DNA of 64,000 nucleotides from assembly GCA_029866215.1 (NCBI GenBank), contig JARWZU010000088.1, positions 124,001 through 188,000 on the forward strand. The letters are read 5' to 3'. The notes below the pieces were generated by a model. That model had not been told where the DNA came from. It was given only the letters and a program-made list of their open reading frames with translations, and searched no databases. Made by a program: the position numbers and the translations under genes. Of this stretch, positions 143 to 38,940 are shown in pieces. The number at the start of each line of letters is the position of its first letter. Position 1 is the first letter of the stretch. The stretch is from Akkermansiaceae bacterium (GTDB lineage: Bacteria; Verrucomicrobiota; Verrucomicrobiia; Verrucomicrobiales; Akkermansiaceae).

Positions 143-207
143 TCCATCGTCGCGGATTGACGGGAATTCCGCTTCCCGCACTTCGCGTTCTGTTTTTCAT
201 CAGTCGT

Positions 208-825
208 ATGAACATCTACCCCGAGTTTCACCGATTCCTACAGCGCACGGACAAGGAAACCCTTCTGGGCCAGCGCGGCATCGTGGTCTGGCTCTGCGGG
301 TTGTCGGGCTCGGGTAAATCCACCATCGCCAACGCCGCCGAACGCATCCTTCACCAGCAAGGACGCTTCACCACCATCCTCGACGGTGACAACCTCCGAT
401 CCGGCCTGAATGCAAACCTCAGCTTCACGGACGAAGATCGCCTGGAAAACATTCGCCGCATTTCGGAAATCTCCAAAATCTTCGTCTCTCAAGGAATCAT
501 CACGTTCGTTTCTGCCATCACCCCACGCGGGGAACTCCGCGCCCTCGCTCGCGAACGACTCGGCAACGACCTTTTCGAGGTCTACATCAAGGCAAGCTTC
601 GAGGCCTGCGAACAACGCGATGTGAAAGGCCTCTACGCGAAAGCCGCCCGCGGCGAAGTCCCAAATTTCACCGGCAAAGACCATTCCTTCGAGCCTCCCA
701 CCCACTCGGACCTCGTCCTCGATACCGAAACCCATTCCGTCGAAGAGTGCGCGCTCAGTCTGATCGCCGCCATTCAAAACCAGATCGCGCTCGCGAACCC
801 CAAGGTTGGCCTTCAGGCGCCTTAA
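208..825 (+). CDS. cysC: Adenylyl-sulfate kinase
   Basis: P-loop GLSGSGKST, DGDNLRSGLNANLSFTDEDRLENIRR; ORF 157..825, preferred ATG at 208. Confidence 0.92.
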   Translation: MNIYPEFHRFLQRTDKETLLGQRGIVVWLCGLSGSGKSTIANAAERILHQQGRFTTILDGDNLRSGLNANLSFTDEDRLENIRRISEISKIFVSQGIITFVSAITPRGELRALARERLGNDLFEVYIKASFEACEQRDVKGLYAKAARGEVPNFTGKDHSFEPPTHSDLVLDTETHSVEECALSLIAAIQNQIALANPKVGLQAP

Positions 826-993
826 TGCCCGCCCAACGGGTAAAAAGAGACTCCGTTTTCAAAGCCAAGAATTCGCGGGATCCGAATCATTAGTAAAAAG
901 CCCAAGATAGTAATTAACTCTTGACGCGACGTGCTTGGCCCCGTATTCCCTCCGCAAGCCGCACCGGCAATCTTTTTCAGTAATTCAATCACC

Positions 994-1899
994 ATGCCCA
1001 ACTACCACCTGAGCAACCTCGACCAGCTCGAAGCAGAAGCGATCTTCATCCTCCGGGAAACCGCCGCCCAATTTGAAAACCCCGCCCTGCTCTTCTCCGG
1101 CGGTAAGGATTCGATCGTCATGGCATGGCTTGCCCGTAAGGCATTTTGGCCCGCACGCATGCCCTTCCCACTGGTCCACATCGACACCGGCCACAATTTT
1201 GAAGAAACTATGACCTACCGCGATGAATTCGTGGAGCTCATCCGCGCCTCACTCGTCGTTGGCTCAGTTCAAGAATCGATCGACCAAGGCCGCGTGGTCG
1301 AAGAAAAAGGCCCGAACGCCTCACGCAACAAACTCCAAACGGTCACCCTGCTCGACACCATCGAGAAGAACCAATACGACGCCTGCCTCGGTGGCGGCCG
1401 CCGCGACGAGGAAAAAGCCCGTGCCAAAGAACGATTCTTCTCGCACCGCGATGACTTCGGCCAGTGGGACCCAAAAAACCAACGCCCCGAACTTTGGAAC
1501 CTCTTCAACGGCCGTAAAAACCCCGGCGAACACTTCCGCGTTTTCCCACTCTCCAATTTCACCGAAATGGACATCTGGATGTACATCCAACGCGAAAATA
1601 TTCCTCTACCCTCGATTTACTTCTCCCACTCCCGTGACGTCTTCGAACGCAATGGCTCGCTGCTCGCTGTCACCGAATTCCTCAAACCCCAAGACCACGA
1701 AACGGTCACCCAAAAAATCGTCCGCTTCCGCACCATTGGCGACGCAACCTGCACCGGCGCCGTAGAATCCACCGCCTCAAACCTCGACGAAGTGATCGCC
1801 GAAGTCGCCGCCGCCCGCCAAACCGAACGTGGCACACGCTCCGATGACAAACGCTCGGAAACGGCCATGGAAGACCGGAAGAAAGAGGGCTACTTCTGA
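994..1899 (+). CDS. cysD: Sulfate adenylyltransferase subunit 2
   Basis: ALLFSGGKDSIVM PP-loop; LGGGRRDEEKARAKERFFSHRDDFGQWDPKNQRPELWNLFNGR; start MPNYHLSNLDQLEAEAI. Confidence 0.95.
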   Translation: MPNYHLSNLDQLEAEAIFILRETAAQFENPALLFSGGKDSIVMAWLARKAFWPARMPFPLVHIDTGHNFEETMTYRDEFVELIRASLVVGSVQESIDQGRVVEEKGPNASRNKLQTVTLLDTIEKNQYDACLGGGRRDEEKARAKERFFSHRDDFGQWDPKNQRPELWNLFNGRKNPGEHFRVFPLSNFTEMDIWMYIQRENIPLPSIYFSHSRDVFERNGSLLAVTEFLKPQDHETVTQKIVRFRTIGDATCTGAVESTASNLDEVIAEVAAARQTERGTRSDDKRSETAMEDRKKEGYF

Positions 1900-1904
1900 G
1901 GGTA

Positions 1905-1945
1905 AACGCTGAAATGCTGAAACGCTGAAAATCTGAAATAAGAAA
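1905..1945 (-). repeat. Inverted-orientation copy of the TTTCAGC-type repeat behind cysD
   Basis: gctgaaatgctgaaacgctgaaaatctgaaat is the reverse complement of the TTTCAGC repeat family seen from 1983. Confidence 0.75.
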
Positions 1946-1982
1946 ATCTTAACGACGAATCCGCCCTTCGCATACACCTCTT

Positions 1983-2142
1983 CATTTCAGCTTCCCAGCT
2001 TCCCAGCTTCCCAGCTTTTCAGCATTTACCTCTAAATTTCAGCTTCTCAGTTTTTCAGCTTTTCAGCTTTTACCTCTAATCGCATTTACCTCTAAATTTC
2101 AGCTTCTCAGCTTCTCAGCTTTTCAGCATTTCAGCATTTACC
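1983..2142 (+). repeat. Pyrimidine-rich TTTCAGC/TTTACCTCTAA repeat array upstream of cysN
   Basis: Exact direct repeat gcatttacctctaaatttcagcttctcag at ~2022 and ~2082 (60-bp spacing) plus many CAGCTTYTCAG units; ends next to the cysN ATG. Confidence 0.85.
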
Positions 2143-2151
2143 TCTAATCCC

Positions 2152-3396
2152 ATGGACCTCCTTCGCTTCACCACTGCCGGCTCCGTCGATGACGGCAAAT
2201 CAACCCTCATCGGCCGCCTTCTTTACGATTCAAAATCGATCTTCGAAGACCAACTCGAAGCCATGGAGGAGTCCTCCCGCCGCAGAGGCGATGAGAACGT
2301 AAACCTCGCCCTCCTGACAGACGGCCTCAAGGCAGAGCGCGAACAAGGCATCACCATCGATGTGGCCTACCGCTATTTCGCAACCCCCAAGCGCAAGTTC
2401 ATCATCGCCGACACCCCGGGCCACACGCAGTACACCCGCAACATGGTGACCGGTGCCTCGACCGCAAACCTCGCGATCATTCTCATCGACGCGCGCAAAG
2501 GCGTCATCGAGCAAACCAAACGCCACAGCTTCATCGCGAACCTCCTGCGCATCCAACACCTCGTCGTGGCCGTCAATAAAATGGACCTCGTCGACTACTC
2601 GGAAGAAGTCTATCAGAAGATCGTCCAAGACTTCCGCAATTTTGCCTCAAGGCTCGATAACATCGTTGAAATCACCGACATCCCGATCTCCGCACTCAAC
2701 GGCGACAACGTCGTGGACAAGTCGGAAAACATGCCATGGTACCAAGGCCCGACTTTTCTCTATCACCTCGAACACGTCTACGTCGGAGGCGAGGAGAACC
2801 ATGTCGATGCCCGCTTCCCCGTTCAGTGGGTGATCCGCCCGATGAGCGATGAATGGCACGACTTCCGTGGATACGCGGGTCGCGTCGCCGGCGGAGTCTT
2901 CAAGCCCGGCGATGAAGTCACCGTCTTGCCCTCAGGATTCAAAACCCGCGTGAAAGCCATCCACAGCCCAGACGGCGAAAAAGCGGAGGCCTTTGCACCG
3001 CAGTCGGTATGCATCACGCTCACCGAGGAAATCGACATCTCACGCGGTGACACGTTGGTGAAAACCAACAACCCACCCCAAGTCTCCCAAGACATCGAGG
3101 CAATGATTTGCTGGTTTTCAAACAAGCCGATGCCTCCGCACGCCAAGTTTGTACTCCGCCACACGACCCAAGAAACCAAAGCGATCATCCAAGACGTCAA
3201 GTACCACGTGGATATCAACACGCTCCACAAGATTGAAGGGGTCGACAGTTTCTCGATGAATGACATCGGCCGCATCTCGCTGCGCACCGCCACCCCTCTG
3301 ATTCACGACTCCTATCGGCGCAATCGGATTACGGGCTCGTTTATCCTCATCGACCCTGGCACCAACGAAACGGTGGCTGCGGGCATGATCATCTGA
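2152..3396 (+). CDS. cysN: Sulfate adenylyltransferase subunit 1 (GTPase)
   Basis: GSVDDGKSTLIGRLLYDSK, DTPGHTQYTRNMVTGAS, NKMDLVDYS GTPase motifs. Confidence 0.95.
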   Translation: MDLLRFTTAGSVDDGKSTLIGRLLYDSKSIFEDQLEAMEESSRRRGDENVNLALLTDGLKAEREQGITIDVAYRYFATPKRKFIIADTPGHTQYTRNMVTGASTANLAIILIDARKGVIEQTKRHSFIANLLRIQHLVVAVNKMDLVDYSEEVYQKIVQDFRNFASRLDNIVEITDIPISALNGDNVVDKSENMPWYQGPTFLYHLEHVYVGGEENHVDARFPVQWVIRPMSDEWHDFRGYAGRVAGGVFKPGDEVTVLPSGFKTRVKAIHSPDGEKAEAFAPQSVCITLTEEIDISRGDTLVKTNNPPQVSQDIEAMICWFSNKPMPPHAKFVLRHTTQETKAIIQDVKYHVDINTLHKIEGVDSFSMNDIGRISLRTATPLIHDSYRRNRITGSFILIDPGTNETVAAGMII

Positions 3397-3462: not shown

Positions 3463-4158
3463 TTACGACTCAGCCCCGTCGGCCTTATTTCTGCCAAGCC
3501 ACCTCCGCACGAGTTGAATCAGCACCACTCCCACGCCAACTAGCACAATCGCCCACTTGGCCAACTTCAAATTCCCATCGGCCAATCCGGCGCCCCCCAG
3601 CACAATCCCGCTGCCGATGATGCCGTTGCTCAGAAGTGAAATCGGCAAAAAAAGCGCAAACGGCGCACGCAAAAATCCTAGAAGGTAATTCGCGAAAAAA
3701 AACGGAATGCCCGGGGTCAACTTCAGAATCAAAATCAATTTGAGATGATTTCCCTTGGGGAGCTCTGGAACCGCGATCTTGGTTTTCGAAAGCATCTTCT
3801 CAACCAGATTTCTCGCTAGACCCGCAGCCAGCCAGTATGTCCACGTTACATTGAGGGCAATCGCGAAAAAAGCCAAGCCGCAAGCCATCACCGGTTGCGC
3901 TCGCCAAACCACCCCCGCCGTCACCAGCAAGGCACTTGCGGGAATCGGCAAGCCCGGCAAAATGACCAAAGCGACAAAAAGCGCCACCGGATTCTCAACT
4001 AAATAGGCGTTCAACTCGGCCCAGTACCCTTTAAGAACGGTCAAATCCAACCCCAACCTCCATCCCAGCAGGCCAAGGATGGCAACGCCGCCCACGAATC
4101 CCGCGAGACCCATTTTCATCCTCCGATCTCCCACAAGTTTAGAAATGACACTGATCAC
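3463..4158 (-). CDS. DedA/TVP38-family (VTT domain) membrane protein
   Basis: Multi-TM; LILKLTPGIPFFFANYLLGFLRAPFALFLPISLLS resembles VTT/SNARE-associated domain. Confidence 0.7.
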   Translation of the reverse strand: MISVISKLVGDRRMKMGLAGFVGGVAILGLLGWRLGLDLTVLKGYWAELNAYLVENPVALFVALVILPGLPIPASALLVTAGVVWRAQPVMACGLAFFAIALNVTWTYWLAAGLARNLVEKMLSKTKIAVPELPKGNHLKLILILKLTPGIPFFFANYLLGFLRAPFALFLPISLLSNGIIGSGIVLGGAGLADGNLKLAKWAIVLVGVGVVLIQLVRRWLGRNKADGAES

Positions 4159-4493
4159 TTTGCTATTACAGCACCCTCGGTAAGTTTAGCAAGTCCCAGA
4201 GCGCAACATTCAACAAATTCTTACCACTTAAAACCCCAATCCATTCGCATCCCGATTTGTTCATTTTTTCTTGAACTTACATCTGAGCAAGCCACCCTCC
4301 CCAAGAGAAATCTTGGTAAATTCAAGATTTCGATTCACTAGCTCCAGAACCCGCACCGCCCCCGAGGCGTCGCAACCAAGGGCGGCAGCGTGTAATTCTC
4401 TCACAGCGTCCCCATTCTTGATGCCCCAAGGGGTTTCCCAAAACCACCCGCATCGCCAAAATCCGCGTTCCATCTCAGTCTCTTCACCTCTCT

Positions 4494-4735
4494 ATTTCAG
4501 CTTCTCAGCTTCTCAGCATTTCAGCTTCTACCTCTAAACTTTCAGCCTCTTCTTTTGAGCCTCTTCTTTTCAGCTTCTCAGTTTTTCAGCATTTCAGCTT
4601 CTACCTCTAAACTTTCAGCTTCTACCTCTAAACTTTCAACTTCTCAGTTTTTCAGCCTCTTCTTTTCAGCTTCTCAGTTTTTCAGCATTTCAGCTTCTAC
4701 CTCTAAACTTTCAGCTTTCCGCTTTCCCAATTTCA
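4494..4735 (+). repeat. TTTCAGC-type repeat array with 64-bp exact duplication
   Basis: agcctcttcttttcagcttctcagtttttcagcatttcagcttctacctctaaactttcagctt occurs at 4558 and again at 4654. Confidence 0.9.
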
Positions 4736-4753
4736 GTTTTACACCTCCCCCCC

Positions 4754-5143
4754 ATGCCTCCCAACCCACGCCTGCCAGAAGACCATCGCATTCGCGTGAT
4801 TGAAGCCCTGAAACCCTTCAATCCAGCTGTGATCTATCTATTCGGCTCTTTCGGCACCGACTACCAACATCCGGCCAGCGACATCGACATCGCTTTTTTC
4901 CCGACACTCGCCACAGACCCCGTCGACTGCTTCCGCATCGCCAATCAGCTCGCCGATCAATTGGGCCACTCCGTCGACCTCGCCGACCTCACCATGGCCA
5001 GCACCGTCTTTTCCAAAGAAGTCCTGCGCACCGGAATTCCGCTTGAGATTCAAAAACCGCACATTCAGCAGCAGTTTGAAATGTTAACCTTGGCCGACTA
5101 CGCCCGCCTCAACGAAGAGCGACAACCGGTTCTCGCACCATGA
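4754..5143 (+). CDS. MNT-type nucleotidyltransferase (MntA-like antitoxin), module 1
   Basis: VIYLFGSFGTDYQHPASDIDIAFF (GSx10DxD); overlaps the downstream HEPN gene by ATGA. Confidence 0.85.
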   Translation: MPPNPRLPEDHRIRVIEALKPFNPAVIYLFGSFGTDYQHPASDIDIAFFPTLATDPVDCFRIANQLADQLGHSVDLADLTMASTVFSKEVLRTGIPLEIQKPHIQQQFEMLTLADYARLNEERQPVLAP

Positions 5144-5541
5144 TTGACGACATCGACTTGAACAAAGCGGCAACCATCCGCCGCTGCCTGCAACGCATTT
5201 CGGAGGAGTACCGAGATGATCCGAGCCGGCTCGATGATTTCACCATTCAGGATTCCATTGTCTTGAACATCCTCCGTGCCTGTGAGGCAGCAATCGATCT
5301 CGCCATGCATCGCGTGGCCCTAGGCCGCCTTGGAATCCCCCAAACCAGCCGCGACGCCTTCGAGTTACTCGCTCAAAACGCCATCATCAGCCAAGCCGGC
5401 GCCACCGCGATGAAGCACATGGTCGGCTTCCGCAACATCGCGGTTCACAACTATCAAAACATTCAAACGCCCGTCCTTCACGCCATCCTCAAGAAGCACC
5501 TGGCAGACTTCGAAACATTCCTAAAGGAACTCTCGCTGTAG
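5140..5541 (+). CDS. HEPN-domain DUF86/HepT-like toxin, module 1
   Basis: RNIAVHNY matches RX4HXY HEPN motif; adjacent MNT gene. Confidence 0.85.
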   Translation: MIDDIDLNKAATIRRCLQRISEEYRDDPSRLDDFTIQDSIVLNILRACEAAIDLAMHRVALGRLGIPQTSRDAFELLAQNAIISQAGATAMKHMVGFRNIAVHNYQNIQTPVLHAILKKHLADFETFLKELSL

Positions 5542-5654
5542 CGCCTTCATCCGCGGTCATTCGCATTCATCTGCGGTTAAAAAAGCTCATCTCCATCCCC
5601 ACCAAAAAACCTTGTTCATTTTTATTGAACCCTCCGACCTCCGAAACTCCATCT

Positions 5655-5735
5655 TCATTTCAGCTTCTCAGTTTTTCAGCATTTCAGCTTCTACCTCTCA
5701 ACTTTCAGCTTCTACCTCTCAACTTTCAGCTTTAC
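5655..5735 (+). repeat. TTTCAGC-type repeat between the two MNT-HEPN modules
   Basis: tttcagcttctcagtttttcagcatttcagcttctacctctcaactttcagcttctacctctcaactttcagctttacc. Confidence 0.85.
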
Positions 5736-5789
5736 CCATCCGCTCCCTCTCTTGACGCTTCCACGTGAAGGGGCCATATTACTCACGCG

Positions 5790-6116
5790 ATGAATAAAAT
5801 TCTTTCCAAGCACACCCGTGAAATTGCGGATCTCTGCAGGAAATATAACGTGCAGCGCTTGGTTGCGTTTGGTTCGGCAGTACGCGCCGATTTCGACTCA
5901 TCTACCAGCGATGTCGATTTAATCGCAGTCTTCTCATCAACTCGAAAGCCTGGATATGCCGACCGCTACATGGATTTCATCCAATCCTTAGAGACCTTGT
6001 TCGGTAGTAAAGTCGATCTCTTGACCCCAAGCTCCATTCGCAACCCACGTTTCGCGGAAGCGATTCAGCGTGACGCTGTCCCCATTTATGAATTTGAGAA
6101 GTCTCAAACGGCTTGA
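5790..6116 (+). CDS. MNT-type nucleotidyltransferase (MntA-like antitoxin), module 2
   Basis: LVAFGSAVRADFDSSTSDVDLIAVF (GSx10DxD). Confidence 0.85.
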   Translation: MNKILSKHTREIADLCRKYNVQRLVAFGSAVRADFDSSTSDVDLIAVFSSTRKPGYADRYMDFIQSLETLFGSKVDLLTPSSIRNPRFAEAIQRDAVPIYEFEKSQTA

Positions 6117-6435
6117 TGATGCTGAAAATGCCTGTTGCCGGATCCAAAGTTTCCTGAGGGCGATTTCATTCGAGACCTTCACCAACTCCGAACTCCTGCG
6201 CTCCGCCGTAGAGCGGCAGCTCGAAATCATTGGTGAGGCTCTGGGAATCGCCGCCAAGGAAGACGATTCCATCTTAGAATTAGTTCCCGACATCCCGCGC
6301 ATCGTTGGCCTGCGCAATCGGCTCATCCACGGATACGATTCGGTAGATCCGGAACTCGTCTGGGACGTTGTAAAAACAAAAATCCCACCTTTAAAACACC
6401 AGATAGCCAAGGCTCGAGCCCAATCCGCTGGCTAA
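6088..6435 (+). CDS. HEPN-domain DUF86/HepT-like toxin, module 2
   Basis: GLRNRLIHGYDSVDPELVWDVV (RX4HXY); overlaps the MNT ORF; ATG at 6088 within ORF 6070..6435. Confidence 0.82.
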   Translation: MNLRSLKRLDDAENACCRIQSFLRAISFETFTNSELLRSAVERQLEIIGEALGIAAKEDDSILELVPDIPRIVGLRNRLIHGYDSVDPELVWDVVKTKIPPLKHQIAKARAQSAG

Positions 6436-6487: not shown

Positions 6488-6540
6488 TTTTAGTTTTTCA
6501 GCATTTCAGCTTCTACCTCTAAACTTTCAGCTTTACCCCT
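6488..6540 (+). repeat. TTTCAGC-type repeat following MNT-HEPN module 2
   Basis: tttttcagcatttcagcttctacctctaaactttcagctttacccc. Confidence 0.85.
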
Positions 6541-6594
6541 CCTCTCCCTCTCTTGTCACTTGATCCTCGTTCCCGCTGACTTCTGAACGCTCCC

Positions 6595-7395
6595 ATGACC
6601 ACGTCCATGAAATCAAAAATCGGCCCTTTTGGGAAATCCGCACTCATCGGCCATACCGGTCTTGTCGGTAGCAATCTTACCCGCCAATTCAGTTTCGACT
6701 CGCTCTACAACTCCAAAAATATTCAGGAGATTGCTGGAGAGCATCACGACCTTCTAGTCTGCAGTGGCGTCTCAGGGACAAAATGGATTGCCAATCAAGA
6801 ACCTGATAAGGATCGAGCCGCAATTGCGGCACTTCTCCAGCAGTTAGAAAAAACCCGAGCCGATGAGCTAATCCTCATATCAACGATCGACGTCTATGAG
6901 AATCCATATCAGGTCGATGAGAAAAGCCCGGTAAACCCCGACCTACTCAACTCCTATGGGAAACATCGTTTTCAGTTCGAACAGGATGTCAAAAGCCTTT
7001 TCCCAAATGTTCTCATTGCAAGACTTCCTGCGATCTATGGATGGAACCTGCGCAAAAATGCTCTATATGATTTAATGCATCGACATGAGCTTGAAAAAAT
7101 TCACCCTGAAAGCATCTACCAATTCTACTGGCTTGAGCACCTCTGGAGCGACCTACTGATCGCCCGCGAGCAAGGAATCAAACTACTGAATTTCGCCACG
7201 GAGCCTCTCTGTATCCAAGAGGTAGCCAATCAAATATTCGGCATCCATCTGGACGGAACACCGGGATCAAAACCTGCCAATTATGACTTCCGCACTTGTC
7301 ATGCCGACCTATTCAATGGCACCGGCGGCTACCTTTATTCAAAATCAACTGCACTCGAGGAAATCCGTACTTTCGTGAAACAACAGCAACTTTAA
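6595..7395 (+). CDS. NAD-dependent epimerase/dehydratase-like (SDR) protein
   Basis: ALIGHTGLVGSNL Rossmann start; LILISTIDVYENP and SYGKHRFQFEQ (YxxxK-like). Confidence 0.7.
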   Translation: MTTSMKSKIGPFGKSALIGHTGLVGSNLTRQFSFDSLYNSKNIQEIAGEHHDLLVCSGVSGTKWIANQEPDKDRAAIAALLQQLEKTRADELILISTIDVYENPYQVDEKSPVNPDLLNSYGKHRFQFEQDVKSLFPNVLIARLPAIYGWNLRKNALYDLMHRHELEKIHPESIYQFYWLEHLWSDLLIAREQGIKLLNFATEPLCIQEVANQIFGIHLDGTPGSKPANYDFRTCHADLFNGTGGYLYSKSTALEEIRTFVKQQQL

Positions 7396-7433
7396 GCACT
7401 CGATAATCCCACCTCCACACTACCACTGTCACC

Positions 7434-8204
7434 ATGAGCAATACCCGCCTTCACTCAGAAGAAAAATCACACCGCGTCGTCGTCGTTATGCCCTCGTACA
7501 ATGTGGCGGGCGTCGTAAACAAAGCCATCGACTCCCTGCCACCCAACGTCATCCATGAAATCTATGTGATTGATGATGGAAGCCATGACGGAACTGCCGA
7601 GGTCGCCAGTGCAGCCGGAGCCACCGTCATCACGCACCCGAAAAACCGAGGCTACGGTGGTGCCCAAAAATCGGGCTACCTTGCAGCCATCGCGAGTGAC
7701 GCCGACGCCATCGTTCTTGTGCATGGCGACAACCAATACGACCCCTCGTACGCGCCCGAATTCATCCGAAAAATCCTTGAAGAGGGCTGCGACATTGTCG
7801 CTGGTACGCGCATGGTTTTAGGCGACGCATTGAAAAACAACATGCCGCTCTGGAAATACCTCCCGATCCGTGCCACCACCTTCATCCAAAACCTCATGCT
7901 CGGAACGAGTATTACCGACTATCACGATGGCTACCGCGCATACAGCGGAGCCTTCCTCAAGTCGGTTCCATTAGACCAACTCAGCAATCGTTTCGACTTT
8001 GATTTCGATATGATGATCCAAGGCGTAGTCTACCAAGCAAAAATCGGGGAAGTCCCCCACCCCACTCGCTATAGCGACGAGAACTCACAGCTCCCGTTCG
8101 ACAAGGCGGTGGCTTGCCAAATCACGATTTTCAAATCCGCCTTCAAGTTCCTTCTTCACCGCATGGGCATCTGGAAACAGGATGTTTACAAGCGCAGTGA
8201 ATAG
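7434..8204 (+). CDS. Glycosyltransferase family 2 protein
   Basis: VVVVMPSYNVAGVVNKAIDSL, YVIDDGSHDGTAEVA, NRGYGGAQKSGY, VLVHGDNQYDP. Confidence 0.9.
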   Translation: MSNTRLHSEEKSHRVVVVMPSYNVAGVVNKAIDSLPPNVIHEIYVIDDGSHDGTAEVASAAGATVITHPKNRGYGGAQKSGYLAAIASDADAIVLVHGDNQYDPSYAPEFIRKILEEGCDIVAGTRMVLGDALKNNMPLWKYLPIRATTFIQNLMLGTSITDYHDGYRAYSGAFLKSVPLDQLSNRFDFDFDMMIQGVVYQAKIGEVPHPTRYSDENSQLPFDKAVACQITIFKSAFKFLLHRMGIWKQDVYKRSE

Positions 8205-8314
8205 CTTCGTGTTAGAATGAAGCCCCGCCCTCTCTACCCGAAAAGCCGCCTCGTCAATTTTTCGAATGGCCTCAGGCCTCGGCGTCATCGCGCCGATGCG
8301 TTCACACTTCACCC

Positions 8315-9424
8315 ATGCCCAAACGCATCGTCATCGCCGGTGGAGGATTCTTTGGCTGCTCCATCGCCATGATGCTGCATCGCCGTGGCTGGCATCCGAT
8401 CGTGGTCGAGGAAGCCGATGAACTCCTGACCCAAGCATCTAGGGTCAATCAAGCCCGCGTCCACGGCGGCTATCACTACCCGCGAAGCTTGATGACCGCT
8501 TACCGGTCGCGACAAAACTACGAAAAATTCCGCACACATTACCGCGATGCCATCGTCGATCAATTCACCAAGGTATACGCGGTCGGGAGATTATTTTCGA
8601 AGGTCACCGCCGACCAGTTCGGGGTCTTCATGAAGCGGGTGGGCGCACCACTTCAGGAAGCACCACCCAAAATCCAGCGCCTATTCAACCCAGACCTCAC
8701 CGAGCGTACCTGGATCGCACAGGAATGCGCGTTCGATTGCTCGGTGTTGAGGGAAATGCTCCGGAATGAACTGCGCATGGCAGGAATCGAAGTGCGGCTT
8801 CAGACGCTGGTGGAGACGGCGACACCACATCCAACCGGTGCCCTAGCCCGACTGTCCGATGGATCGGAAATCGAGTGTTCTCTAGTTTTCAACGCGACTT
8901 ACGCCGGATTGAACCGATTGACGGCCGCCTCCGACTTACCACTCATCCCACTGAAGCACGAGCTCACCGAAATGGCATTAGTGGATCTTCCAAAGGAACT
9001 CGAGGGACTTTCCGTCACCATGATGTGCGGACCGTTCTTTTCCTTCATGCCCTATCCTTCACTGGGACTTACGACCCTCAGCCACGTGCGCTACACCCCG
9101 CACGCCCACTGGTTCGAAAACGAACAAACCGGAGCTGCCAACCCCTACCAAACATTCGACACCATCGAAAAACACAGCAATTTCGAAATGATGGTCGCCG
9201 ATGCCTCGCGCTACATGCCCGCGCTGCGCGATGCCGTCCAGCGAGACTCGCTGTGGACCATCAAGACGCTGCTGCCGCTGAGTGAAATTGACGACGGTCG
9301 CCCGATCCTCTTCCAACGCGACAACAAACTCCCAGCCGTGATCCACGTGATGGGCGGAAAAATTGATAACATCTTCGACGTCGAGGAGGAGATCGAGCGA
9401 TTAGTGGGTAACGTTGAAATCTGA
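8315..9424 (+). CDS. FAD-dependent oxidoreductase (DAO-like fold)
   Basis: IVIAGGGFFGCSIAMMLHRRGWHPIVVEEA dinucleotide-binding motif. Confidence 0.75.
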   Translation: MPKRIVIAGGGFFGCSIAMMLHRRGWHPIVVEEADELLTQASRVNQARVHGGYHYPRSLMTAYRSRQNYEKFRTHYRDAIVDQFTKVYAVGRLFSKVTADQFGVFMKRVGAPLQEAPPKIQRLFNPDLTERTWIAQECAFDCSVLREMLRNELRMAGIEVRLQTLVETATPHPTGALARLSDGSEIECSLVFNATYAGLNRLTAASDLPLIPLKHELTEMALVDLPKELEGLSVTMMCGPFFSFMPYPSLGLTTLSHVRYTPHAHWFENEQTGAANPYQTFDTIEKHSNFEMMVADASRYMPALRDAVQRDSLWTIKTLLPLSEIDDGRPILFQRDNKLPAVIHVMGGKIDNIFDVEEEIERLVGNVEI

Positions 9425-9542
9425 AAGGTTGACCGCTAAAATAATTGCATGACCCCACGCAGATTAACCACCACGACCCTAATCGCGCACCGTCGATTCC
9501 CCTTTCTGAATTTTAATTTTCAACTTTTAACTTTCTATCAAA

Positions 9543-10526
9543 TTGGACTCTAACACCGTCGTAAGCATTGTCATTGCCCTCGAACAGGATGCAAACCTGC
9601 TAGAGAACTTGGTAAGAGAAATCGACCAAACTGTTGGCTCCGCCTATCGGTTCTTTGAAATCGTACTGGTGGACGATGGATCCACCGATGGTACCTCCAT
9701 GGCCATCCAACCACTGCTCAAGGAGATCCAGCGCATCCGTTACCTTCGGCTTTCACGGTCTTTTGGCAGGGATGTAGCTCTATCCGCAGGCATCGAGTCG
9801 GCGATCGGTGATTTTGTGGTGACACTCGATCCCCAGACGGATCCGATCGAAGTCATTCCCGCCATGATTGATCTGTGCCGGAGAACTGGCGGTGTCGTTC
9901 ATGGCATGGCTCAGAACCCGATCAAACGCTCTTTCATGCGCGATTGGCTGGGTGGCATGTTCCGCAACTACTGCCGCAAGCACATCGGTGTGGACATTAA
10001 GCGCGGAGTTTCGGATTTCCGAGTGATGAGCCGCCAAGCAGTGAATGCGCTACTGCAAGTGCGCGAGCAAAGCCGCTACCTACGGGTGCTCACCCTCACA
10101 CTTGGCTATCAGCATGAGTTTTTCTCCTACACGATCTTGTCGAGAGTCGGCGGTGCTCGCACTACGACGTGGCGGACCGAGATTACCACCGCCATCGATC
10201 TACTGGCCGCCAACACCCGGCATCCGTTGCGCCTCGTCACCATGGCGGGCCTACTCGGGGCATTTCTCAATCTGCTCTATGCAGGCTACGTGGTGATCAT
10301 CTTCCTGATCAAATCGAACGTGGCTGCGGGTTGGACCACGATGTCCCTCCAACAGAGCGGGATGTTTTTCTTTGTCTGCTTGATTCTCGCCGTGCTGAGC
10401 GAATACGTCGGCACCATTCTGGGAGAAGTCCGTACCCGTCCGATGTATTTCATAGCCCAGGAAGCGAACAGCTCGGTATTGCTCGAGGACACAGTTCGCT
10501 CAAGCATCGTCAAGGAGTCTGTCTAG
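9543..10526 (+). CDS. Glycosyltransferase family 2 (DPM/polyisoprenyl-phosphate GT-like) with C-terminal TM segments; TTG start
   Basis: ALEQDANLLENLVREI, VLVDDGSTDGTSMAI, LRLSRSFGRDVALSAGIESA, two C-terminal TM helices. Confidence 0.85.
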   Translation: MDSNTVVSIVIALEQDANLLENLVREIDQTVGSAYRFFEIVLVDDGSTDGTSMAIQPLLKEIQRIRYLRLSRSFGRDVALSAGIESAIGDFVVTLDPQTDPIEVIPAMIDLCRRTGGVVHGMAQNPIKRSFMRDWLGGMFRNYCRKHIGVDIKRGVSDFRVMSRQAVNALLQVREQSRYLRVLTLTLGYQHEFFSYTILSRVGGARTTTWRTEITTAIDLLAANTRHPLRLVTMAGLLGAFLNLLYAGYVVIIFLIKSNVAAGWTTMSLQQSGMFFFVCLILAVLSEYVGTILGEVRTRPMYFIAQEANSSVLLEDTVRSSIVKESV

Positions 10527-10590
10527 TTCGCCTCGGACAGCCTCTCGGCTGCTCTCCGCGTTTTCCAGGCCACCACCATCCAAGCCCATC

Positions 10591-12510
10591 ATGTCACAAC
10601 GCCATTCCCTGACCCACGGCACCCCAGCCCGTGATCTTCCCATGATCCTGCGACTTGCTGGCATCGGGTTGATATGCTTCGTTTGGTGTCAAGTTGTCGG
10701 ATGGGGCTTGTCGTACCTCAACGCCTTGAATGCAGGTGGATATTTGGCATCAATGCCCTTCCTTATCGCTTCTGGGGTCCTTTTTTGGAGGGCCACATCG
10801 CCACATATCGCACGGCCCTTAGGGCTTTCAAAATGGTGGCGGCGTCTTAAGTCCTCGCCAGCACTTGCCGCGTGGTCCGTCATATCCTCTATCATTCTTA
10901 TTGGAGCCATCGCGCATGCACCCAGCAACTATGATGCCGTAACTTACCGCCTGCCTAGGCTTCTCTACTGGCTACAAGAAAACCACTGGCATTGGATCGA
11001 CAGCGATCATCGCCAAAGTATCAGCGGTGTTGGCTTTGAGTGGATGATGGCACCCCTCATCGCCCTCAGCCACAGCGACCGTGGGCTATTTCTTATCAAT
11101 TTCATTCCCTTCCTGCTACTTCCGGGCTTGTTTTTTTTGGCAGCCTGCGGACTTGGCATCCGCAAAGGCGTGGCCAACTGGTGGATGTGGGTTTGGCCGA
11201 TGGCGTACGGAATCGCCCTACAGGCGGGTAGCATCGGCAACGACCTGTTGCCGGCCGCACTCGCACTCGCATCATTGGCATTTGCGGCTCAGGCTCTTCG
11301 TTGCAAACCATGGCTCTGTCTCTTTTTATCCGCATTGGCAGCGGCCTCCATGACGAGCGTCAAGGCTACCTCCCTTCCCTTGGCGCTGCCAATCGGCATT
11401 TATTGGCTGCGGGTAGCATGGCAGACGCTTGGATTGCGCGGCTCGAGCACCGTGATCCTTGCGACGTTACCAGCGGCTACTCTATCCAGTTTTCTTCCCA
11501 TCGCACTCGCCTGCACGATCTACACAGGAGCTTGGAGCGGTAACCCGGGCAACCGCCATGGCGCCGAGGCCGGTCACCCCGTCGCCGGAGTCATCGGAAA
11601 TTCAATCGAAATCGGCAGCGGACTCATCCAACCGCCAGTTTTCCCAGGCTGTACGAAGGCAAACACAATCTTACAACGGTTGGCCGAAGAACAAGCATGG
11701 TATCGTTGGACGAAAAAAAATTATTACCTTTTCAAGGTCAACCTGGGGCGGGAAATCCCGATGGAAGAATCCGCGGGTGTCGGCCTGGCCATCACTACAC
11801 TTGCTCTCATCGCGCTTTTCTCACGAAAGCTCAACAAAAAGGCATATTTCATACCCTATTCAATCATTCAATGCACGTTCATGGTCGCAACGGCGATCGC
11901 CTTGCTCGCTTTCACGAGCAAAATGGGAACCGGGGGAGTCGCTCGCCTCGCCCTACCCTACATTCCCCTCATGCTGTTGTGCTGCCTCTTCGGTCTGAGA
12001 AAACAACCACCCGCGAAATGCCGCCTTAATGTGGCATTGCAGTTGATTCCAGCCGCGTTTCTTATTCCGTCACTCATTTTCAATCCGAATCGCCCACTCC
12101 TACCCGTGGCTTCTCTGGCCAGCCAGCCCGGAATGCCACAGGCAATCAAGGAGAGGATTTCTTCGGTTTACGAAGCCTATCAAAACCGAGCAACCATCCT
12201 CATGTCCCTGCAACAACGGATCCCCCAAGGTGAAACAATCGGATTCGCGGGTGAGGGCGACCATTCTGCATTGGGCCTGTTCAAACCCTACGGCTCGCGC
12301 AAAGTCATCCACCTTACACCACGCTCGGAGGCCCACCTTAACTGGATTGTTGGAACAACTGAAGGTTTAGAAGCTCATTTAAAAATCACACTGGCCGAAT
12401 GGAAGTCGAAAAATCAATTCGAGAAAATCGCTGAAGTTCAAATTGTATCCAAAGCTTCCGGAGGTCCCGAAAGCTGGTTTATTTACAAAAGGCTACCATC
12501 AAAGCCGTAG
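10591..12510 (+). CDS. Multi-TM membrane glycosyltransferase-like protein (GT-C-like)
   Basis: ~10 hydrophobic segments; APSNYDAVTYRLPRLLYWLQENHWHW. Confidence 0.5.
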   Translation: MSQRHSLTHGTPARDLPMILRLAGIGLICFVWCQVVGWGLSYLNALNAGGYLASMPFLIASGVLFWRATSPHIARPLGLSKWWRRLKSSPALAAWSVISSIILIGAIAHAPSNYDAVTYRLPRLLYWLQENHWHWIDSDHRQSISGVGFEWMMAPLIALSHSDRGLFLINFIPFLLLPGLFFLAACGLGIRKGVANWWMWVWPMAYGIALQAGSIGNDLLPAALALASLAFAAQALRCKPWLCLFLSALAAASMTSVKATSLPLALPIGIYWLRVAWQTLGLRGSSTVILATLPAATLSSFLPIALACTIYTGAWSGNPGNRHGAEAGHPVAGVIGNSIEIGSGLIQPPVFPGCTKANTILQRLAEEQAWYRWTKKNYYLFKVNLGREIPMEESAGVGLAITTLALIALFSRKLNKKAYFIPYSIIQCTFMVATAIALLAFTSKMGTGGVARLALPYIPLMLLCCLFGLRKQPPAKCRLNVALQLIPAAFLIPSLIFNPNRPLLPVASLASQPGMPQAIKERISSVYEAYQNRATILMSLQQRIPQGETIGFAGEGDHSALGLFKPYGSRKVIHLTPRSEAHLNWIVGTTEGLEAHLKITLAEWKSKNQFEKIAEVQIVSKASGGPESWFIYKRLPSKP

Positions 12511-37558: not shown

Positions 37559-37562
37559 GTTT

Positions 37563-37656
37563 CCGTCCTCCGTCCTCCGTCCTCCGTCCTCCGTCCTCCG
37601 TCCTCCGTCCTCCGTCCTCCGTCCTCCGTCCTCCGTCCTCCGTCCTCCGTCCTCCG
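37563..37656 (+). repeat. Heptanucleotide tandem repeat (CCGTCCT)~13
   Basis: 94 bp of uninterrupted ccgtcct units, followed by ctttctgctttctgctttacctccc up to the next ATG. Confidence 0.98.
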
Positions 37657-37695: not shown

Positions 37696-38490
37696 ATGGA
37701 CTTCACCATCATCACTCCGAGTTTGAACTATGGGCGCTTCCTCGGGGACTGCCTTGCCAGTGTTGCGGGTCAGACGGACGTGACGCTGGAGCACTTGGTC
37801 TTCGATGGTGGATCAACGGATGAAAGCGCCGAGGTAGCCGCAAGATTTCCACACATTCAATGGCAGCAAGAGGTCGATCAGGGGATGTCTCACGCGATCA
37901 ACAAAGGCTTTGATCAAGCGAAGGGCGACTGGGTCATCTGGTTGAATGCCGACGATCGCCTCAAGCCTGGGGCATTGGCCATGCTTCTTCCCTTTCTTAA
38001 GAGATCCACCTCCGACGTCGTCTATGGCGATTGGGATTTCGTGAATGAACTCGGCAACTATCAACGAACCGTAAAGTCGTTAGGGTGGTCTTGGTTGATC
38101 CATATCCACCATCATTGCTATGTCGGATCGACTGCAGCATTTTATCGGCGCACGAGTGTGATCGACTCAGGCTACCGACTTCGCGAGGATTTTCGGTATG
38201 TGATGGACGGCGAGTTTTACGCACGTCTCGATTCCAACCGCAAACGCTTTGAATATGTGCCTCTGAATCTAGCAGACTTTAGAATGCACGAGTCAAATGC
38301 TTCGCAACGACACTTGGCGAAGACCCGCGATATGGAGATAATTCTCGCGGCAGAGCGACAGCACGTGGAGTCCCGTGCCATCCGCAGGGCTTACGGGATT
38401 ACACTTTTTCGAGATCCGTACTTGAACGGACTGGTCGATGGCTTGCTGTGGATTTTTACGAAAGGATGGAAGATGATCCTTAAATGGTAG
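37696..38490 (+). CDS. Glycosyltransferase family 2
   Basis: FTIITPSLNYGRFLGDCLASVAGQ, LVFDGGSTDESAEVA, GDWVIWLNADDRLKPGAL. Confidence 0.92.
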   Translation: MDFTIITPSLNYGRFLGDCLASVAGQTDVTLEHLVFDGGSTDESAEVAARFPHIQWQQEVDQGMSHAINKGFDQAKGDWVIWLNADDRLKPGALAMLLPFLKRSTSDVVYGDWDFVNELGNYQRTVKSLGWSWLIHIHHHCYVGSTAAFYRRTSVIDSGYRLREDFRYVMDGEFYARLDSNRKRFEYVPLNLADFRMHESNASQRHLAKTRDMEIILAAERQHVESRAIRRAYGITLFRDPYLNGLVDGLLWIFTKGWKMILKW

Positions 38491-38589
38491 GGTGCCGAAC
38501 ATGTTGATTCAGGAAGTCTCACTTTGACCTCATGGCACGCAAATTGTAGAATGTACTTGTGCGAATTTCGTCTCACCAAAAATTGATAA

Positions 38590-38845
38590 TCCTTCATGCG
38601 GGGCATGAACAGGATCCTCAGGCGAAGGTCATCCTCTTTGGCTCACGGACGAAGGACGACCAGCGCGGGACGAAATCGATCTACTGGTGATTTCGGATCC
38701 GCTTGATTTTCGCAAGCAGTAGAAGATCCGTAGAGACATTCTCGATAAGATCGGCTGGCAAAAGCTGGATCTGTTAGTTTACCCGACTGACCAACTCGGC
38801 TCCGGAATTGCGCATTTCGCGATCAAATCAGGTATTTCATTATGA
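38590..38845 (+). pseudogene. Decayed MNT-type nucleotidyltransferase
   Basis: IILHAGHEQDPQAKVILFGSRTKDDQRG, then a frameshift to DEIDLLVISDPLDFRKQ*KIRRDILDKIGWQKLDLLVYPTDQLGSGIAHFAIKSGISL*. Confidence 0.8.
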
Positions 38846-38940
38846 ACACAGACCCAGTTGCAATTTATTTGAGAGACAGCTTAGAGGAGCTCAGCAGGGC
38901 GCTTGCTTCGCCACTGAGTCGAACGCAGAAAATTCCTTGA
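38842..38940 (+). pseudogene. Truncated HEPN-type partner gene
   Basis: MNTDPVAIYLRDSLEELSRALASPLSRTQKIP*, ATGA-coupled to the preceding MNT relic; C-terminal RX4HXY motif missing. Confidence 0.6.

Follow-up and report, generated by a model that had tools for sequence, protein, structure and literature searches.

Among toxin-antitoxin (TA) modules, MNT-HEPN pairs are predicted to rank with the commonest. In the genome of an Akkermansiaceae bacterium (G000; 3.03 Mb in 88 contigs), two such pairs follow one another beside sulfate-activation genes, with arrays of short tandem repeats around them. The locus raises the question of how the pairs came to this place and whether the repeats brought them there. 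An initial annotation of the window (the whole 64,000-nt stretch analyzed here, G000:C4:124001-188000) had proposed that the modules were gained by recombination between the repeats. We compared the window with 261 genomes of the family (61 genomes for the counts within the genus), using one genome per species. In the account that we consider probable, two independent MNT-HEPN operons would have been gained separately at a hotspot beside cysC-cysD-cysN (cysCDN) and a glycan cluster, and the arrays would be leader repeats of the operons (Table 1).

Table 1. Features of the window discussed in the text (coordinates of arrays 1 to 3 are approximate)
Feature	Position	Strand	Description and basis
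cysC, cysD, cysN	157-3396 (cysC 157-825, cysD 931-1899, cysN 2152-3396)	+	Sulfate activation, conserved anchor of the hotspot; names by sequence reading; order kept in relatives
cysD-cysN array	1976-2147	+	Same type as arrays 1 to 3; ends just before the cysN ATG (2152)
VTT-domain membrane protein	3463-4158	-	Between cysN and the modules; Pfam PF09335 (1e-9), synteny
Array 1	4475-4738	+	TTTCAGC octamers and 21-nt TTTCAGCTTCTACCTCTAAAC units; leads to the MntA1 ATG
MntA1	4754-5143	+	Type VII antitoxin, minimal nucleotidyltransferase, GSX10DXD; NCBIfam NF047752 (6.9e-27), PDB 5yep_A (7.6e-13)
HepT1	5140-5541	+	Type VII HEPN toxin, RNIAVHNY = RX4HXY; NCBIfam NF047751 (1e-45), PDB 6m6u_B (2.8e-37)
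Array 2	5652-5755	+	Leads to the MntA2 ATG
MntA2	5790-6116	+	MNT antitoxin of another subfamily, GSX11DXD; Pfam PF01909 (1.9e-11), PADLOC PDC-S09 (9.4e-27)
HepT2	6088-6435	+	HEPN toxin of another subfamily, RNRLIHGY = RX4HXY; Pfam PF01934 (1.3e-22)
Array 3	6488-6560	+	Leads to the RmlD-like ATG at 6595; array end similar to the end of array 2
Start of glycan cluster	6595-12510	+	RmlD-like gene (6595), glycosyltransferases (7434, 9543), FAD oxidoreductase (8315), membrane protein (10591)
Decayed third MNT-HEPN module	38558-38940	+	Frame change, stop codon and beginning of a HEPN frame; tblastn match in L197, translation

The initial annotation had described two MNT-HEPN pairs, and open frames, profile matches and motifs bear this out, with both pairs intact at 4754-5541 and 5790-6435. 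In module 1, MntA1 scored 93.4 bits against the NCBIfam MntA_antitoxin model and HepT1 154.5 bits against HepT_toxin, both above the cut-off of 60. The GSX10DXD motif of MntA1 reads GSFGTDYQHPASDID, and Y105 of HepT1 pairs with Y104 of Shewanella HepT in the alignment to 6m6u. The two genes are co-directional and overlap by 4 nt (5140-5143). Module 1 thereby has both equivalog scores, both motifs and the adjoining genes that mark type VII HepT/MntA systems. It resembles the solved Shewanella structures by sequence match, and the relatives of HepT1 at 64 to 86% identity among named records include Akkermansiaceae MAGs. HepT is an RNase, and MntA moves AMPs onto the Tyr of RX4HXY by means of GSX10DXD (PMC7641770). 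By family inference, HepT would be an RNase toxin in each of the two pairs of the window, and MntA would be the antitoxin that silences it through AMPylation of the RX4HXY Tyr. Module 1 shares with the Shewanella oneidensis pair (SO_3166/SO_3165, PMC7641770) its families, RX4HXY and GSX10DXD motifs, equivalog-level scores and gene adjacency; it differs in lying in a cysCDN/glycan hotspot and in that its activity is predicted from sequence.

Module 2 is an MNT-HEPN pair in the wider sense. MntA2 and HepT2 exceed the cut-offs of the Pfam models NTP_transf_2 and HepT-like (44.6 and 80.2 bits, respectively), and both RX4HXY and the GS...DXD motif of MNT proteins are present. Against the NCBIfam type VII equivalogs, the two proteins stayed below the cut-offs of 60, at 34.3 and 37.8 bits. 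The HepT2 ORF is open from a GTG at 6070, and the ATG at 6088 is the likelier start. The GSX11DXD motif of MntA2 is one residue longer than GSX10DXD; since the relatives in G276 and G193 have it as well, we read the extra residue as a subfamily trait and not as decay. HepT2 is 71% identical to its homologue in G276, 65% to that in G193 and 40% to that in G013, and the motif is invariant. Module 2 is probably of the COG1669/COG2361 type. It resembles the mobile two-gene MNT-HEPN modules of PMC2701414 in its short MNT gene and overlapping HEPN gene with RX4HXY, and GSX11DXD sets it apart. That study reports recent insertions of MNT-HEPN modules in Deinococcus and Thermus and, as far as consulted, describes no recurrent site for them at cysN.

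The two modules differ in sequence, as had been noted at the outset, and belong to distinct subfamilies. HepT1 and HepT2 can be aligned along no more than 35 residues (20% identity), and pairwise comparison of MntA1 with MntA2 found no alignment. We therefore ruled out that one module is a duplicate of the other, the pairs being nearly unrelated. Their very low similarity also makes cross-talk between the neighboring modules, raised in the initial annotation, appear unlikely. Module 2 occurs without an intact module 1 in G193 and G276, and module 1 occurs without module 2 in G192 and G004. A Pfam model search of the genome gave no HepT-like gene beyond HepT1 and HepT2. The decayed third module farther downstream matches, at 46 to 56%, the MNT of a cysN-adjoining module in G081, and the related module also stands beside cysN in G017. 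Taken as systems, both modules of the window are ordinary type VII-like (HepT/MntA) pairs in an interesting place.

Comparison with the relatives for presence and absence, which the initial annotation had suggested, found both modules to be patchy: HepT1 (E <= 1e-30) was present in 12 of the 261 family genomes and HepT2-type genes in 13 of the 261. The tree of MntA1 plus HepT1 disagreed with that of cysD plus cysN in AU tests. A clade of G000, G192 and G004 was rejected by the cysD-cysN data (P = 1.6e-6), and a group of G004, G185, G081 and G194 was rejected by the module 1 data (P = 0.0096), both P values being indicative since the groups were picked after the identity table had been seen. 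The conflict supports the view that module 1 moved horizontally. In a vertical history, the modules would instead be old residents of the cysCDN locus that were lost in most lineages, and the arrays would be unrelated to them. Linkage to cysCDN is indeed kept across two genera, and the modules of G185, G081 and G194, all upstream of cysC, group in the module tree. However, the AU tests reject a common history of module and cysD-cysN for G000, G192 and G004, and the position of the module relative to cysCDN varies, so that we regard a vertical history as very unlikely.

Comparison of the relatives shows that such modules enter the cysCDN locus again and again. HepT1 lies 0.6 to 7.5 kb from cysN on the same contig in 10 of the 12 genomes that carry it; of the other two, G190 has it at a contig end and G275 has it unlinked, which makes 10 of 11 resolvable cases. 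Module 1 is placed upstream of cysC, between cysN and the VTT gene or past the VTT gene. Module 2 of G193 lies between cysN and an inverted VTT gene, and beside it, beyond the VTT gene, are homologues of the glycan genes at 6595, 8315 and 9543. Among the 35 HepT-like matches listed for the 61 genus genomes, 10 fall within 5.2 kb of cysN, a tally that, given the relatedness of these genomes, does not amount to an independent test. Other TA-like genes occupy the locus in relatives, for example RelB/ParE-like and MNT genes in G001. The island of G276, which adjoins a VTT gene and has cysN on another contig, holds AbiEii, DUF433/DUF5615, MNT and HepT-like genes. The novelty lies in the place: the family keeps gaining such TA pairs beside the same sulfate-activation genes. 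A literature search found no publication tying TA hotspots to cysN, and a search joining HepT, MntA and tandem modules found nothing relevant.

Two further observations concern these loci. One stretch of G276 (L272:2678-12111) is a dense island of nucleotidyltransferase-type TA genes with heptamer arrays at many boundaries and with VTT and glycan neighbors. In G001, an ORF at L099:15164-15607 was read as REP-associated-transposase-like and had no Pfam match.

To our knowledge, movement of MNT-HEPN modules without a transposase or an integrase is poorly documented. Two relatives carry what may be footprints of such movement at the 3' end of cysN. In G081 (L122:4196-5295), a full cysN is followed by an MNT-HEPN pair and then by cysN codons 374 to 414; in G023 (L109:6566-7492), a full cysN is followed by a DUF2281-PIN pair and then by cysN codons 380 to 414. 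The module of G081 is found at the equivalent site in G017 (HEPN 94%, MNT 89%) without a second cysN end, and the agreement between G081 and G017 stops right after AAATAAGTAACCGC. Compared by eye, the second cysN end of G023 differs from the genome's own cysN by synonymous changes only, as expected of an end that was recently part of a working cysN. Both arrangements fit an insertion anchored by cysN homology at one flank and closed by an illegitimate joint at the opposite flank; the second cysN ends could also be local duplications. Homology-facilitated illegitimate recombination is known from transformation and conjugation (PMC3240628). An insertion of this kind, homologous at one end only and joined illegitimately at the opposite end, would leave a module together with part of a gene, which is the layout seen in G081 and G023. 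Unlike the process described there, the one proposed here is read from footprints in the sequences of relatives only. No cysN 3' copy flanks the modules of the window's own genome, so for these we infer from the two relatives that entry may have occurred by recombination that was anchored by cysN homology and completed by an illegitimate joint. A more far-reaching version, in which the cysN 3' end would be a recurrent integrase-free docking site for TA modules and glycan islands, with the arrays as secondary breakpoints, is somewhat unlikely in our judgment. If true, it would tie TA carriage to the sulfation/glycan locus across Akkermansiaceae.

Further partial gene copies were seen in the relatives. 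Orphan cysN ends in G207 and G217 were discounted, as they match at the ends of contigs; in G217, the two cysN copies first agree and then diverge into different island sequence. These patterns fit assembly overlap or strain mixture. In G232 (L356:4027-4188), a partial cysN 3' end directly follows glycan genes and the full cysN is on a different contig, which is a weak lead. G030 (L107:6561-8621) has a partial VTT copy (residues 10 to 111) about 1 kb from the full VTT gene, a possible footprint.

The initial annotation had described the modules, within 4754-6435, as each bracketed by the same repeat. Arrays do occur before, between and after the modules, but array 1 lies outside that interval, and the presence of a further, fourth array of this kind between cysD and cysN implies that the repeats mark more than the modules alone. 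Compared with array 1, array 2 shows 95% identity over 81 nt; array 3 shows 67% across the whole unit and is closer over a shorter core. No other arrays in the genome resemble one another as much as arrays 1 to 3 do. The exact 17-mer TTTCAGCTTCTACCTCT has seven copies in the 3.03-Mb genome, all at the module locus; with up to two mismatches allowed, its chance expectation in the window is 0.00. A looser octamer pattern is present in 44 of the 61 genus genomes. After the cysD stop, a short inverted array (1904-1938) faces the forward array at 1976-2147, and opposed array pairs are seen in relatives too.

The placement of the arrays points to genes more than to modules. All eight window arrays that we checked (those preceding cysN, MntA1, MntA2 and the genes at 6595, 12680, 30364, 31263 and 37696) have a pyrimidine-rich coding strand, and the distance from the end of the array to an ATG is at most about 60 nt; the ATGs led in this way include those of cysN and glycan genes. 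Island loci contain 99 intergenic arrays that we scored; 48 of them stand before a start codon in the pyrimidine-coding orientation, compared to 11 in the opposite one. Array density is 2.34 per 10 kb in the island and 0.28 to 0.48 on the rest of the contig. In random stretches of G000 and related genomes, we counted 0.43 arrays per 10 kb, and 3 of 496 ORFs were flanked on both sides. The modules look bracketed because each operon has its own leader, namely array 1 for MntA1, array 2 for MntA2 and array 3 for the glycan gene at 6595. The arrays therefore look like gene-leader repeats and not like an insertion device; the pyrimidine arrays would precede island operons as leaders and serve at most as occasional breakpoints. 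The TAACTGA heptamers of Beggiatoaceae (PMC4679880) are similarly short, tandem, of one orientation and just upstream of starts, whereas the window arrays have other units and are concentrated in the cys/glycan island.

A further reading concerns the arrays only and is compatible with separate gain of the operons. The arrays might be contingency (phase-variation) repeats that tune the following operon through their copy number, with the modules sharing the leader type of the island. Their closeness to ATGs agrees with this, as does the description of start-codon heptamer repeats in Beggiatoaceae (PMC4679880). A perfect 13.6-copy array of the 7-mer TCCGTCC at 37562-37656, shortly before the glycosyltransferase-like gene at 37696, is a candidate phase-variable leader. 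Most arrays are imperfect, however, and we consider phase variation fairly unlikely.

The proposal that the modules are cassettes, gained, lost and shuffled by recombination between near-identical flanking arrays, can draw on the likeness of arrays 1 and 2, on the core shared by array 3 and on the array family being largely confined to the island in G000. Long arrays also flank module 1 on both sides in its three closest copies, those of the mobile clade (G000, G192 and G004). In G276, the MntA1 frame ends inside a heptamer array and HepT1 is missing, so arrays can sit at breakpoints; MntA2-HepT2 of the same genome sits between two heptamer arrays. However, the array units vary among close copies of module 1 (TTTCAGC-type; CCTACCA/GCCTCCC; CGCCCTAC/CGCCCTC) and therefore offer no shared sequence for transfer across species. 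No array was found within 600 bp of module 1 in G188, G185, G194 and G275, and none adjoins module 2 of G193; around module 1 of G081, G179, G180 and G176, the tandem repeats are short or mixed and in some cases lie on both sides. With units differing or arrays absent, no one repeat bounded the module across genomes. Arrays were also rejected as a general mark of MNT-HEPN modules, since the majority of the HepT-like loci in the genus are not flanked by arrays on both sides. Arrays likewise head cysN and glycan genes, pointing at start codons.

The initial proposal thus divides. Horizontal gain is supported by the tree conflict and the patchiness; the repeats as its agent are not supported, given their leader-like placement, the unit differences, the array-free copies and the clearer footprints at the cysN 3' end. 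Breakpoints in the repeats have one cross-species example, G276, whereas several module copies are array-free. Gain by recombination between repeats would therefore be a weak proposition, and we judge the cassette model to be unlikely. Since arrays 1 to 3 are the most alike and the mobile-clade copies are array-flanked, some role for the arrays may still exist.

One chromosomal site in the family takes up MNT-HEPN pairs repeatedly, sometimes with a readable footprint. This makes both the route of entry and any effect of the modules on their sulfation and glycan neighbors testable.
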